A stretch of 64,000 bases of DNA. Origin: Mucilaginibacter dorajii. GTDB taxonomy: Bacteria > Bacteroidota > Bacteroidia > Sphingobacteriales > Sphingobacteriaceae. The position numbers and the translations under genes were made by a program. This document shows positions 60,452 through 64,000 of the stretch, piece by piece. The stretch spans positions 310,001-374,000 of the forward strand of contig NZ_JANTYS010000005.1 of the NCBI RefSeq assembly GCF_024808255.1, given 5' to 3'. Numbering within the stretch: the first letter of the stretch is position 1; every line of letters starts with the position of its first letter. The notes below the pieces were generated by a model. The model was not told where the DNA came from. It saw only the letters and a list, made by a program, of their open reading frames with translations, and did no database searches.

Positions 60452-60812
60452 TTTGCTTGTCTTGATCTTGTTTATCTATGCCCGTTGTATTTATAAGGAA
60501 TATCTCATGATGAACGCGAACTACTTATCGCATTTCATGTAACATTGCAAAGTTATGGGGATAAATAAAACCATAACAGATACAGATTACGAAAATCCAG
60601 ACATAACAGATACAAAAAATCAGGTGGTAGCTTGTTAAGGTCCTCCATTCGCCTTAACCCAACAAGGTTCGAACTCTAAAAGGAAAAACGTCACTCAAAA
60701 CCGGACGTTCGCCTGTACGTTTTTGTTACAATACCCTGCCGCGTGAAAATTACATCCAACTATCAATCAATACTTTATTAATTTGGAATATAAATTGACC
60801 CGAAGTTTTGAA
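60452..60812. promoter_or_regulatory. Divergent intergenic region with a 13-bp direct repeat
   Basis: CATAACAGATACA occurs at 60572-60584 and again at 60602-60614, exactly 30 bp apart. The spacing, about three helical turns, suits a dimeric or multimeric regulator. A further inverted pair (AAAAACGT and ACGTTTTT around 60683-60726) lies nearer to the plus-strand gene. No ORF or RNA gene is seen. Confidence 0.5.
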
Positions 60813-63800
60813 TTGAACTCTCACACATTCCATATAAGCTGGTACGACCTGTTATTGCTCGGAACAATTTTTACCGGGCTTATTTTCGCTGCGTTATTAG
60901 TTTTTATGAAAAGTGTCCACCTGGGCGCCAATCGGTTTCTCGCACTCGCGTTGGTAGTGATGGTTTTGTGCATGGTGCATGTTATAAATACCAACATCGG
61001 GGTGCCCTTGCAGTTTTCGCTGGCGCTTGGCCCCCTGATCTTTTTTTATGTGCTTAAACTAACCCGACCGGAGTTTAAATTCAATTGGAAATACTTATGG
61101 CATTTCATCCCGGTATTATTGGAACAGGTTATCCTATCAGATGCTGTATTGCAACTGTTGACTTTTATTTCGGTTTTTACCTACCTGCGATGGTGTAATA
61201 AGCTGATAGAAGGCTATTATAATCAGCTAAAATTCATTGAAGGGGACCGGTACCGGCTCAAATTACGTTGGCTGCAACGCCTATTGACGGGTTTCAGCGT
61301 ATTGTGCTTATTATGGATGCCTTGCGCAATAGCCAATCGTTTTAATATAAATGTCCATTACCCTTTATACCCCATTTCGGCGGTTATGACGATTTGGTTA
61401 GGGGTTGTAGCCTTTGTCAGGTTTAAAGAAATACCTACCGAAACAATTTCGGTGTACCCCTCCCCTGCCTCCACGGAATTGAAGCAAAAGGCTGCCTGGC
61501 TAAAGCATGTAATGAAAAACAAACGGTATTACCAGGACCCGGAACTCACCTTAAGTTCATTGGCTAAAAAACTTGGACTAACTACCCATGACTTGTCCCG
61601 GATCATTAATACAGGGCTCAAAAAAAGTTTCAATGATTTGATCAATGAATATCGCGTTGCCGAAATAACCCAAAAAATGCGGGACCCGGCCTACAACCGA
61701 CTCACCCTGCTGGGCATGGCTTATGATACCGGTTTCAACTCCCAGAGTACCTTTCATCGGGCATTCAAGGAAGTAACTGGGAAAACCCCTGCAGAATATA
61801 AAAAAGAACTCCCATTTTATAACTTGACATATCGTTCAGGCGCTGCCCCGTTAATTTCACCCCGGAAATTAAACCGCATTAATATGTTTAAAAATTATTT
61901 AAAGATGGCATGGCGCAACATGCTGTACAACAAAGGTTACAGCGTACTGAACATTACGGGTTTAGCAACCGGCATGGCAGTAGCGCTTTTGATTGGTTTA
62001 TGGGTAACAGATCAGTATTCTTATGACCGTTTTTTACCGGGCTATCAGCAACTGTACCAGGTTGAGATGAACCTTACCAGCCAGCACTTTGGTACCAGTA
62101 CACAAACGTCCATAGCGCTGCCGCTGACCGACGTTTTAAAGAAAGAGATCCCGGGGGTAAAGTATGTGGCCGAAACTGACAATATAGGCAAGATGAACCA
62201 CGGCTTGCTGGTAGGCGATAAAAAGCTATACATGGAAGGTGGTGCCGCAGGTGCTGATTTTTTCAAAATATTTCAATATCCATTTATAAAAGGCAATGCC
62301 AATTCGGCTTTAAAGGACATTTACTCCATCGTTTTAACCGAATCGACTGCCATGGCATTATTCGGTGATGCCGACCCGATGGGTAAGGATGTTCGTTTTG
62401 ATAATGCGCAAAACATGAAGGTTACGGGTATTATCCGGGATATTCCAAAAAACGCCACGCTGCAATTTAATTATATTACCCCATTTGCCTATAATGAAGC
62501 TACCCAGGAGTGGATCAGGGAAGGCCGGACCAAATGGACCTACAATTCGTTTTCCGCTTATGTGGCACTGGAAAAGGGTGTGACCTATGCGCAGGTGGCA
62601 CCGAGGATCAGGAATATCGTATATCAAAAAAGCCCGGATATGCGAACATTGAAGCCCGAGGTGCTGATGCATCCTTTGAAGGACTGGCATTTATACAGCG
62701 AATTTAAGAACGGCAGGGCGGTCGGCGGCTTTGTAGATTATGTTCGCCTGTTCAGCATCATCGGACTTTTGGTACTGGCTATCGCGTGCATCAATTTCAT
62801 GAACCTATCTACCGCGCGATCCGAAAAACGGGCAAGGGAGGTCGGTGTCCGCAAAGCCATCGGCTCCAGACGTATCGATTTGATTTACCAGTTTTTGCTT
62901 GAGTCGGTTTTGATTACGTTTATTTCTTTTCTGCTAAGCCTGCTCTTTGTACAGCTTGCTTTGCCATCTTTCAACGCGCTCACCGGCTCAGCCATTCGTA
63001 TTCCTTTCGGCAATATCGGCTTTTGGTCTATCATGATCGCTTTTATATTGCTTACGGGTTTAGCAGCAGGAAGCAGACCGGCGTTCTACCTATCTTCCTT
63101 CAATCCGGTTAAAGTGTTGAAGGGAAGTATCCAGGTAGGTAAAGCTGCAACACTGCCCCGGAAAATACTGGTTGTGATCCAATTCACGTGCTCTGTTGCT
63201 TTAATCATCAGCACAATCATTGTTTACCAGCAAATAGCGTATGTCAAGAACCGGCCAACAGGCTATAGCGCAGACCGCTTGGTTATGACCGATATGAACG
63301 GCGACCTTTACCAGCATTATGACGCGCTCAGAAATGAGCTACTGTCAACGGGATTGGTGGAAAGCGTGGCCTCCTCTACGTCGCCAGCGACGCAGGTGTA
63401 CAGCCATTTTTCGCTGGAGAAATGGCCGGGCAAAAATGCCGGAGATGAAAGTGTGAACATCGGCGCCATATGGGTCTCCAATGAATATTTTCAAACGCTG
63501 GGCATGACCATGGCAGCCGGGCTGCAGTTTTCCGGTGATTCGAAAAAGGATTCGCTTAATGTGATCGTCAACGAAGCCACCGTAAGGCGCATGGGGTTAA
63601 AGGAAGCCGTTGGTCAAACGATCTCCTGGAATGGCAGCAACCAGCCGGTAAGGATTGTTGGCGTTGTGAAGGATGCCTTGATGGAGTCGCCCTACAAGCC
63701 TGTGGAGCCCGCCATTTTCGGGCATAGCCCGAGTGGGTTCGTGATCACTTACCGTTTGCCGAAAAACGCCGATGCTCATACCGTAATAGAAAAGATAGGT

Positions 63801-64000
63801 AAAGTGTTTGAAAGATATAACCCGGCTTACCCTTACCAATTTAAGTTTGTTGACGACGAGTATGCGCACAAATTTAGCCTTGAGGTGTTGGTAGGAAAAC
63901 TGGCAGGCGTATTTGCCGGCCTGGCAATCTTCATTTCCTGCCTGGGTTTATTCGGCCTGGCCGCCTACGTTGCCGAACAGCGCACCAAAGAGATCGGCAT
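60813..64000 (+). CDS. Fusion: membrane AraC-family regulator joined to FtsX/MacB-type ABC permease (3' end cut)
   Basis: One open frame without a stop from 60747 to the window end. TTG 60813 is the proposed start because it precedes the first membrane helix by a few residues; TTG 60783 and ATG 60906 are alternatives. Residues 1-215 hold about seven hydrophobic segments (WYDLLLLGTIFTGLIFAALL first). At about 235-345 is an AraC-type double HTH (LTLSSLAKKLGLTTHDLSRI; DTGFNSQSTFHRAFKEVTGK). A 19-residue linker leads to MFKNYLKMAWRNMLYNKGYS at ATG 61884, the usual first residues of Bacteroidota FtsX permeases. Then come the MacB periplasmic domain and the FtsX TM domain (SEKRAREVGVRKAIGSRRID). 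The frame was checked codon by codon across the junction. About 90 residues should be missing at the 3' end. No ATPase gene is visible. Two separately started proteins remain possible. Confidence 0.85.
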   Translation, partial: MNSHTFHISWYDLLLLGTIFTGLIFAALLVFMKSVHLGANRFLALALVVMVLCMVHVINTNIGVPLQFSLALGPLIFFYVLKLTRPEFKFNWKYLWHFIPVLLEQVILSDAVLQLLTFISVFTYLRWCNKLIEGYYNQLKFIEGDRYRLKLRWLQRLLTGFSVLCLLWMPCAIANRFNINVHYPLYPISAVMTIWLGVVAFVRFKEIPTETISVYPSPASTELKQKAAWLKHVMKNKRYYQDPELTLSSLAKKLGLTTHDLSRIINTGLKKSFNDLINEYRVAEITQKMRDPAYNRLTLLGMAYDTGFNSQSTFHRAFKEVTGKTPAEYKKELPFYNLTYRSGAAPLISPRKLNRINMFKNYLKMAWRNMLYNKGYSVLNITGLATGMAVALLIGLWVTDQYSYDRFLPGYQQLYQVEMNLTSQHFGTSTQTSIALPLTDVLKKEIPGVKYVAETDNIGKMNHGLLVGDKKLYMEGGAAGADFFKIFQYPFIKGNANSALKDIYSIVLTESTAMALFGDADPMGKDVRFDNAQNMKVTGIIRDIPKNATLQFNYITPFAYNEATQEWIREGRTKWTYNSFSAYVALEKGVTYAQVAPRIRNIVYQKSPDMRTLKPEVLMHPLKDWHLYSEFKNGRAVGGFVDYVRLFSIIGLLVLAIACINFMNLSTARSEKRAREVGVRKAIGSRRIDLIYQFLLESVLITFISFLLSLLFVQLALPSFNALTGSAIRIPFGNIGFWSIMIAFILLTGLAAGSRPAFYLSSFNPVKVLKGSIQVGKAATLPRKILVVIQFTCSVALIISTIIVYQQIAYVKNRPTGYSADRLVMTDMNGDLYQHYDALRNELLSTGLVESVASSTSPATQVYSHFSLEKWPGKNAGDESVNIGAIWVSNEYFQTLGMTMAAGLQFSGDSKKDSLNVIVNEATVRRMGLKEAVGQTISWNGSNQPVRIVGVVKDALMESPYKPVEPAIFGHSPSGFVITYRLPKNADAHTVIEKIGKVFERYNPAYPYQFKFVDDEYAHKFSLEVLVGKLAGVFAGLAIFISCLGLFGLAAYVAEQRTKEIG

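Follow-up and report, generated by a model that had tools for sequence, protein, structure and literature searches.

Several described systems resemble parts of the protein considered here, a fusion of an AraC-type regulator with a MacB/FtsX-type permease. It is encoded in a stretch of 64,000 nucleotides (nt) of the Mucilaginibacter dorajii genome (contig NZ_JANTYS010000005.1, positions 310,001 to 374,000; hereafter, the window). The permease half belongs by sequence and fold to the MacB/YbbP/LolCE permeases of the ATP-binding cassette (ABC) type, but the fusion has no ATPase domain and no neighbouring ATPase gene, and it carries a regulator. With ADOP (TIGR03434) it shares a match over nearly the whole model, the duplicated MacB_PCD/FtsX arrangement and, as far as the largest neighbour clusters show, the lack of an obvious partner ATPase; it differs in scoring 259–325 bits against a cut-off of 622 and in having a seven-transmembrane (7-TM) AraC module in front. 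In BceAB-BceRS systems an FtsX/MacB-type permease is used for sensing, with sensor, pump and regulator as separate proteins, whereas the fusion joins regulator and permease in one chain and has no kinase. The standalone 7-TM AraC regulators of Bacteroidota have the regulator half alone, with no permease attached, encoded by a gene of its own and mostly in frames of some 300–500 amino acids (aa). A transporter-like domain and a signalling output are likewise combined in one chain in the SLC5-STAC-histidine kinases CbrA and CrbS; their output is a kinase acting via a response regulator, whereas the fusion has an ABC-type permease and a DNA-binding domain placed between two membrane domains. Signalling by CbrA and CrbS does not depend on transport (PMC5715377). 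Some Bacteroidota have orphan MacB/FtsX permeases by the dozen; two Dyadobacter genomes carry 28 and 33 of them, annotated as being of unknown function (PMC11573002). No study of the regulator-permease architecture was found in the literature searched.

The frame of the fusion gene is uninterrupted from 60783/60813 up to the end of the window; extension along the contig gave a frame of 1153 aa that begins at TTG 60813 and ends with a stop codon at window coordinate 64274. The encoded protein contains, in this order, seven transmembrane (TM) segments, an AraC helix-turn-helix (HTH) domain and a duplicated MacB/FtsX permease with eight TM segments by hydropathy:

60813..60815, + strand: start codon (TTG) of the fusion, with the in-frame TTG at 60783 as a possible alternative.
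60840..61430, + strand: 7-TM domain (residues 10–206), predicted N-out and C-in from hydropathy, the Lys/Arg pattern and AlphaFold helices.
61560..61805, + strand: AraC-type DNA-binding domain HTH_18 (residues 250–331), from Pfam (E 9.8e-15) and fold matches.
61806..61883, + strand: linker (residues 332–357), disordered as protein and conserved as DNA.
61884..61886, + strand: internal ATG (Met358), the seam and a possible second start; Met in 93/93 fusions.
61884..64000 (the frame runs on past the window to its stop at 64274), + strand: duplicated MacB/FtsX (ADOP-like) permease, from Pfam.

An earlier, sequence-only reading of this locus had proposed that the HTH region continues in frame into a full FtsX-type permease, giving about 1150 aa. 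The fusion is real and conserved. The junction is open in the frame starting at 61743; position 61741, from which that reading had translated it, is off by two bases, and the frame read from there contains stops. Pfam analysis of the focal protein detected HTH_18 together with two MacB_PCD and two FtsX stretches; the permease is a duplicated ADOP-like one, with two halves in one chain, and not a single FtsX unit. As for the joined topology, which that reading considered consistent, hydrophobic segments averaged over 93 fusions number seven before the HTH and eight after it. Lys/Arg counts alternate clearly across the first seven, which places the N-terminus outside and the HTH inside, whereas no such regularity emerges for the permease segments; a cytoplasmic N-terminus of the permease is predicted from the position of the HTH and from knowledge of the family. 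In the full-length AlphaFold model (mean predicted local distance difference test score, pLDDT, 77; predicted template-modelling score, pTM, 0.62), helices agree with hydropathy and linker residues 333–354 are disordered (pLDDT < 50). The AraC domain matches solved AraC-type DNA-binding domains in fold. The Pfam scan gave no match above cut-off for the 7-TM domain. In a model of 60813–61904, the bundle (residues 4–209) aligns to G-protein-coupled receptor (GPCR) structures with VIA Z 14.3–15.8 in the 50 rows shown, helical bundles often reaching about 14 by chance; its Foldseek matches have E 0.1 or weaker, with GPCR-like rows filling the list, which is near chance for such bundles.

Five further fusions of 1135–1231 aa, all intact, are encoded in the same genome. 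HTH_18, HTH_AraC, MacB_PCD and FtsX were the only Pfam models matched in these six proteins: HTH_18 passes its cut-off (33.6) in all six with 40.2–55.1 bits, FtsX is found twice in all six, and MacB_PCD twice in five and once in P0002. TIGR03434 scores 258.7–325.3 bits in the six (290 for the focal permease), below its cut-off of 622.3, with nearly the whole model covered. A search for homologues with both HTH and MacB/FtsX domains, which the sequence-only reading had suggested, yielded 93 non-redundant fusions, namely those of the same genome and 87 from named records, with a median pairwise identity of 43%. The genome scan for relatives used the best 80 of 420 confirmed stretches, corresponding to 75 loci; 182 open reading frames matched both module profiles, 101 passed the cuts (at least 1000 aa, regulator match from near the start), and 93 were left once 3 that reached the edge of a locus, 3 duplicates and 2 with more than 90% identity had been removed. 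The carriers are Mucilaginibacter, Parapedobacter, Olivibacter, Hufsiella and Bacteroidetes metagenome-assembled genomes, the named ones being mostly Mucilaginibacter.

Since these 93 are open frames by selection, the unselected share was taken from a scan of 301 genomes of the family, in which five candidates were scored per genome, so that its counts are lower bounds. The regulator module was found at E 1e-60 or better in 36/301 genomes and 5/25 genera, and 66 of the 74 matches listed lie in an open frame of at least 1130 aa. The other eight comprise three frames of 354–385 aa, one of which (G323) is a frameshifted fused copy, and five of 473–898 aa. Genomes of the same genus contain from 0 to 13 matches. 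Outside the family, the matches listed from 395 genomes of the phylum (E 1e-25 or better, four candidates scored per genome) lie mostly in separate frames of about 300–500 aa, and the only fusion among them is a decayed copy in G568; two further candidates, G025 and G033, match the HTH part only. The G568 copy (L185, G568:C1:5403276 region), from another family of the same class, is frameshifted and decaying, which suggests horizontal transfer or loss.

Analysis of the 93 fusions revealed that the two halves have separate histories, a result beyond the reach of the earlier reading of a single window. Regulator and permease identities correlate with r = 0.147 over 4278 pairs. The permeases of L076 and L011 are 90% identical and their regulators 47%, while L099 and L098 have regulators 88% and permeases 40% identical; in eight profiled pairs the identity shifts at or close to the linker. 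Of 61 well supported splits of the permease tree, 7 recur in the regulator tree and 52 conflict with a supported split there; conversely, 37/45 regulator splits are contradicted by the permease tree. When 19 standalone permeases taken from the fetched loci are added to the permease tree, they intermingle with the fused ones, and the fused/standalone state changes 13 times (Fitch). In five of six fused/standalone pairs picked by hand from this tree, the similarity starts at the internal ATG (61884), with identities of 0.13–0.47 over the 60 nt 5' of the ATG and 0.80–0.90 in the first 30 nt from it.

A frame of the fusion/permease cluster is present within 4 kb of 56/93 fusions, and 88/95 such frames are on the same strand. 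In the 19 pairs of adjacent fusions, regulator identity is 0.69 and permease identity 0.34, the latter no higher than over all pairs (0.37). Against the six fused permeases, the M. dorajii genome contains about 44 standalone MacB_PCD permease frames of 780–930 aa, several of them in tandem arrays (contigs C39, C40, C28, C5 and others). The halves have been swapped in both directions at a seam conserved in DNA, and this is the strongest new result of the analysis. The re-pairing would be accounted for if conserved permease starts and linkers recombined within such arrays. No silent donor cassettes were found: all 20 seam-motif matches listed (8/26 genomes; none in the reversed control) fall inside known fusions, with the limit that the motif at three mismatches recovers only 2/6 own-genome seams and diverged cassettes could escape. 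The median amino acid identity is 0.71 for the HTH, 0.60 for the TM domain and 0.30–0.37 for the thirds of the permease; a conserved DNA-binding half with a variable permease half would be anticipated where one type of output serves many inputs.

The linker is maintained as DNA or RNA, judging by codon positions, fourfold sites and codon choice. The linker check suggested by the sequence-only reading gave a positive answer at all three codon positions, which are about equally conserved (e.g., 0.61/0.65/0.60, compared with 0.57/0.68/0.40 in the whole gene). Pooled identity at fourfold sites is 0.71 in the linker, 0.42–0.49 in the regulator and 0.34–0.35 in the permease, and linker third positions are still 0.62 identical in 917 pairs with both halves diverged. 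The ten most codon-biased of 455 columns include five in the linker, P334 (ranked first) and four at residues 347–355. Its length is 144 nt in 78/93 fusions. In addition, an RNA hairpin CCAC/GTGG 5' of the seam keeps its four core pairs in 67–75 of 78 equal-length sequences, mostly with one-sided changes, which is suggestive only. At the seam itself, Met358 is invariant in 93/93 fusions, the codon having been checked as ATG in each; it has not changed at all, the median for permease sites being 19 changes, and 25/796 permease sites are likewise unchanged.

The explanation towards which we cautiously lean is that of a one-component regulator tethered to the membrane and made of two interchangeable modules, in which a permease-like part serves as the swappable sensor. 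The 7-TM domain and the AraC HTH would form the conserved output module and the variable orphan permease the input, the two being joined by the disordered linker. The two periplasmic MacB-like domains may detect an outside compound or the state of the envelope, and the signal would cross the membrane to the HTH in its cytoplasmic loop, which could act at the gene's own conserved promoter and possibly on other genes. Recombination at the linker and the permease start would re-pair the halves, and a given switch would thereby gain a new sensor, while the start context kept at the seam probably also gives some free permease. The role of the permease as a sensor is favoured by analogy, because the fused transporter domain of CbrA and CrbS signals without transport. 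A more elaborate form of this proposal is possible, although we would not count on it: a combinatorial sensing family in which the 7-TM output has repeatedly been re-paired, at a start-bearing seam, with members of an open repertoire of orphan permeases, each gene making both the full regulator-permease and a free permease, with the permease as the interchangeable sensor and the free form tuning the response.

Four observations weigh against the swappable-sensor explanation. The sixth fused/standalone pair (L098/L140, distant) has an identity of still 0.43 after the ATG. The pTM of the full-length model is only 0.62, and its N-terminal helices are of modest confidence. There are 59 PF00005 matches in the genome, and an ATPase acting in trans could still allow transport. 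Finally, fusion and permease genes aside, no neighbour cluster occurs near more than 6/93 fusions, and no regulon is visible.

Transport is central to the best surviving alternative, a true flux sensor in which the permease would use a shared ABC ATPase to pump a compound and would signal this transport to the attached HTH. This seems unlikely, although the permease retains the MacB/YbbP architecture. Its best fold match is YbbP 9ge6 (template-modelling score 0.46 on target, root-mean-square deviation 12), followed by MacB, with LolCDE and BceAB chains lower in the list; the 9ge6 entry is titled a YbbAP complex, which we take to be an ATPase plus a permease. Many ATPase frames in the genome are of about 220–260 aa, and one of 239 aa lies beside a standalone permease approximately 10 kb downstream of the focal gene. 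The focal gene itself has no adjoining ABC ATPase gene: the downstream search that the sequence-only reading had called for found none next door, the nearest PF00005 match being a 586-aa exporter-type frame about 3.4 kb downstream on the other strand. No PF00005 match was detected in the six own-genome fusion proteins at E 0.001, and a single ABC ATPase-like cluster, recognised by eye among the 14 largest neighbour clusters, is near 4/93 fusions. Signalling independent of transport in CbrA and CrbS (PMC5715377) also argues against a flux sensor. Independent pumping by the fused permease is therefore not indicated, while help in trans is possible.

It is rather improbable that the locus consists in effect of two overlapping genes, with translation from ATG 61884, and perhaps transcription from the linker, yielding an ordinary free permease and the full-length protein being a minor product. 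The invariance of Met358 would fit this, as would the start context, in which the GC content at -20..+22 is 19.8% compared with 45% in the coding sequence and the RNA is less paired (0.53 versus 0.45 unpaired in the 60 of 93 fusions tested). A is present at -6, -12 and -13 in 98, 98 and 94% of fusions, in agreement with the initiation positions favoured in Flavobacterium johnsoniae, although T at -3, found in 76%, is less frequent in well-translated genes (PMC6847099). Of the 91 fusions that have a residue at the outer start, 82 use TTG, 4 ATG, 4 GTG and 1 CTT. In the relative L092, the halves are split by a frameshift and a stop in the linker, and the permease frame retains the ATG and runs without a stop as far as the locus extends. 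Separate halves would nevertheless have no need for the linker to remain open, as in the 66 of 74 listed frames, nor for its constant length in a set chosen as open frames. That Met358 never varies was not accepted as proving internal initiation: Met289 of the HTH does not vary either, and part of the constancy is explained by exchange with standalone permeases, for which the Met is required. An internal promoter in the linker was not supported, as the -7-like box TAATTTCG has C in place of the expected T at -6, the focal copy departs further from the expected sequence, and the upstream TTG is 25 nt off. This gap is wider than is usual for such promoters.

Internal initiation at ATG 61884 with a free permease as a second product is nonetheless plausible, if unproven, because exchange with standalone permeases would also preserve the Met; a literature search on internal initiation gave general papers only. 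The in-frame fusion of the sequence-only reading is supported; its view of a single polypeptide is qualified by the invariant ATG in its AT-rich, DNA-conserved context and by the split in L092. A relative with a stop at the junction, which that reading regarded as evidence against the fusion, does exist in L092, while most listed relatives are open.

A self-spreading cassette, in which the regulator and linker recombine onto permease genes with no selected joint function, appears quite improbable. The variable number of matches per same-genus genome, the adjacent copies with similar regulators and unrelated permeases, and the DNA conserved at both module ends would be in line with it; however, no recombinase or transposase was recognised by eye among representatives of the 14 largest neighbour clusters, many residues are invariant in both halves, and most listed frames are open. 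A sequencing or assembly artefact or decaying read-through, for which the eight shorter listed matches and the decayed L185 could speak, can be dismissed, because of the five intact paralogues in the genome and the open frames of at least 1130 aa in 66 of the 74 listed matches.

Upstream of the swappable-sensor candidate, two further elements were recognised:

60696..60725, no strand assigned: inverted repeat CAAAACCGGAC / GTACGTTTTTG that continues into TTGTTACA and resembles an operator or a terminator, from sequence.
60778..60789, + strand: TTAATTTGGAAT, a promoter-like element lying 31 nt (at TTTGG) 5' of the start codon, from motif comparison.

A TTTGGAAC..ATTG-like site is located 30–33 nt 5' of the start in 78/91 fusion upstream regions, with up to 5 of 16 mismatches allowed; this motif by itself is not specific genome-wide. 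The core CGnAC/GTnCG inverted repeat was found in 41/78 upstream regions, against 0.05 expected in shuffles, and its consensus is CAAAACCGnAC...GTtCGnTTttG, then TTACA. The repeat with TTTTGTTACA also occurs 5' of a standalone ADOP-like permease (L149) and a GH30 glycosidase (L148). It was seen as well 5' of a 488-aa secreted protein of similar appearance (L155; likeness judged by eye). Since it precedes a few other genes too, the repeat may belong to a regulator other than the AraC module, or be a terminator. The use of TTTGGAACARCGATTGA at two mismatches in a search for AraC targets was abandoned, with matches near the control level in many genomes. An additional in-frame start further 5' is present in 33/91 fusions.

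As for the unfused 7-TM AraC relatives, a PF00144 serine hydrolase gene follows four of the five examined, directly in L188, L190 and L059 and one gene further in L189; the fifth, L192, has other small genes instead. A serine hydrolase is also encoded beside two own-genome fusions, but inspection by eye of the 14 largest clusters of genes neighbouring the 93 fusions revealed none. This neighbour hints at an envelope-related origin and serves as a lead only. Another AraC fusion was observed at L186:4026-6314 (-), where GNAT acetyltransferase, TPR repeats and HTH_18 are combined in one 762-aa frame.

The joining of orphan permeases to a DNA-binding domain, together with their cartridge-like exchange, suggests that at least some of them are sensors, and the attached HTH offers a direct handle that could report what each permease detects. 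If the proposal is correct, the family would show sensor and output domains being exchanged in nature at one fixed seam, and swapping halves in this way could wire many outside signals to a similar switch.

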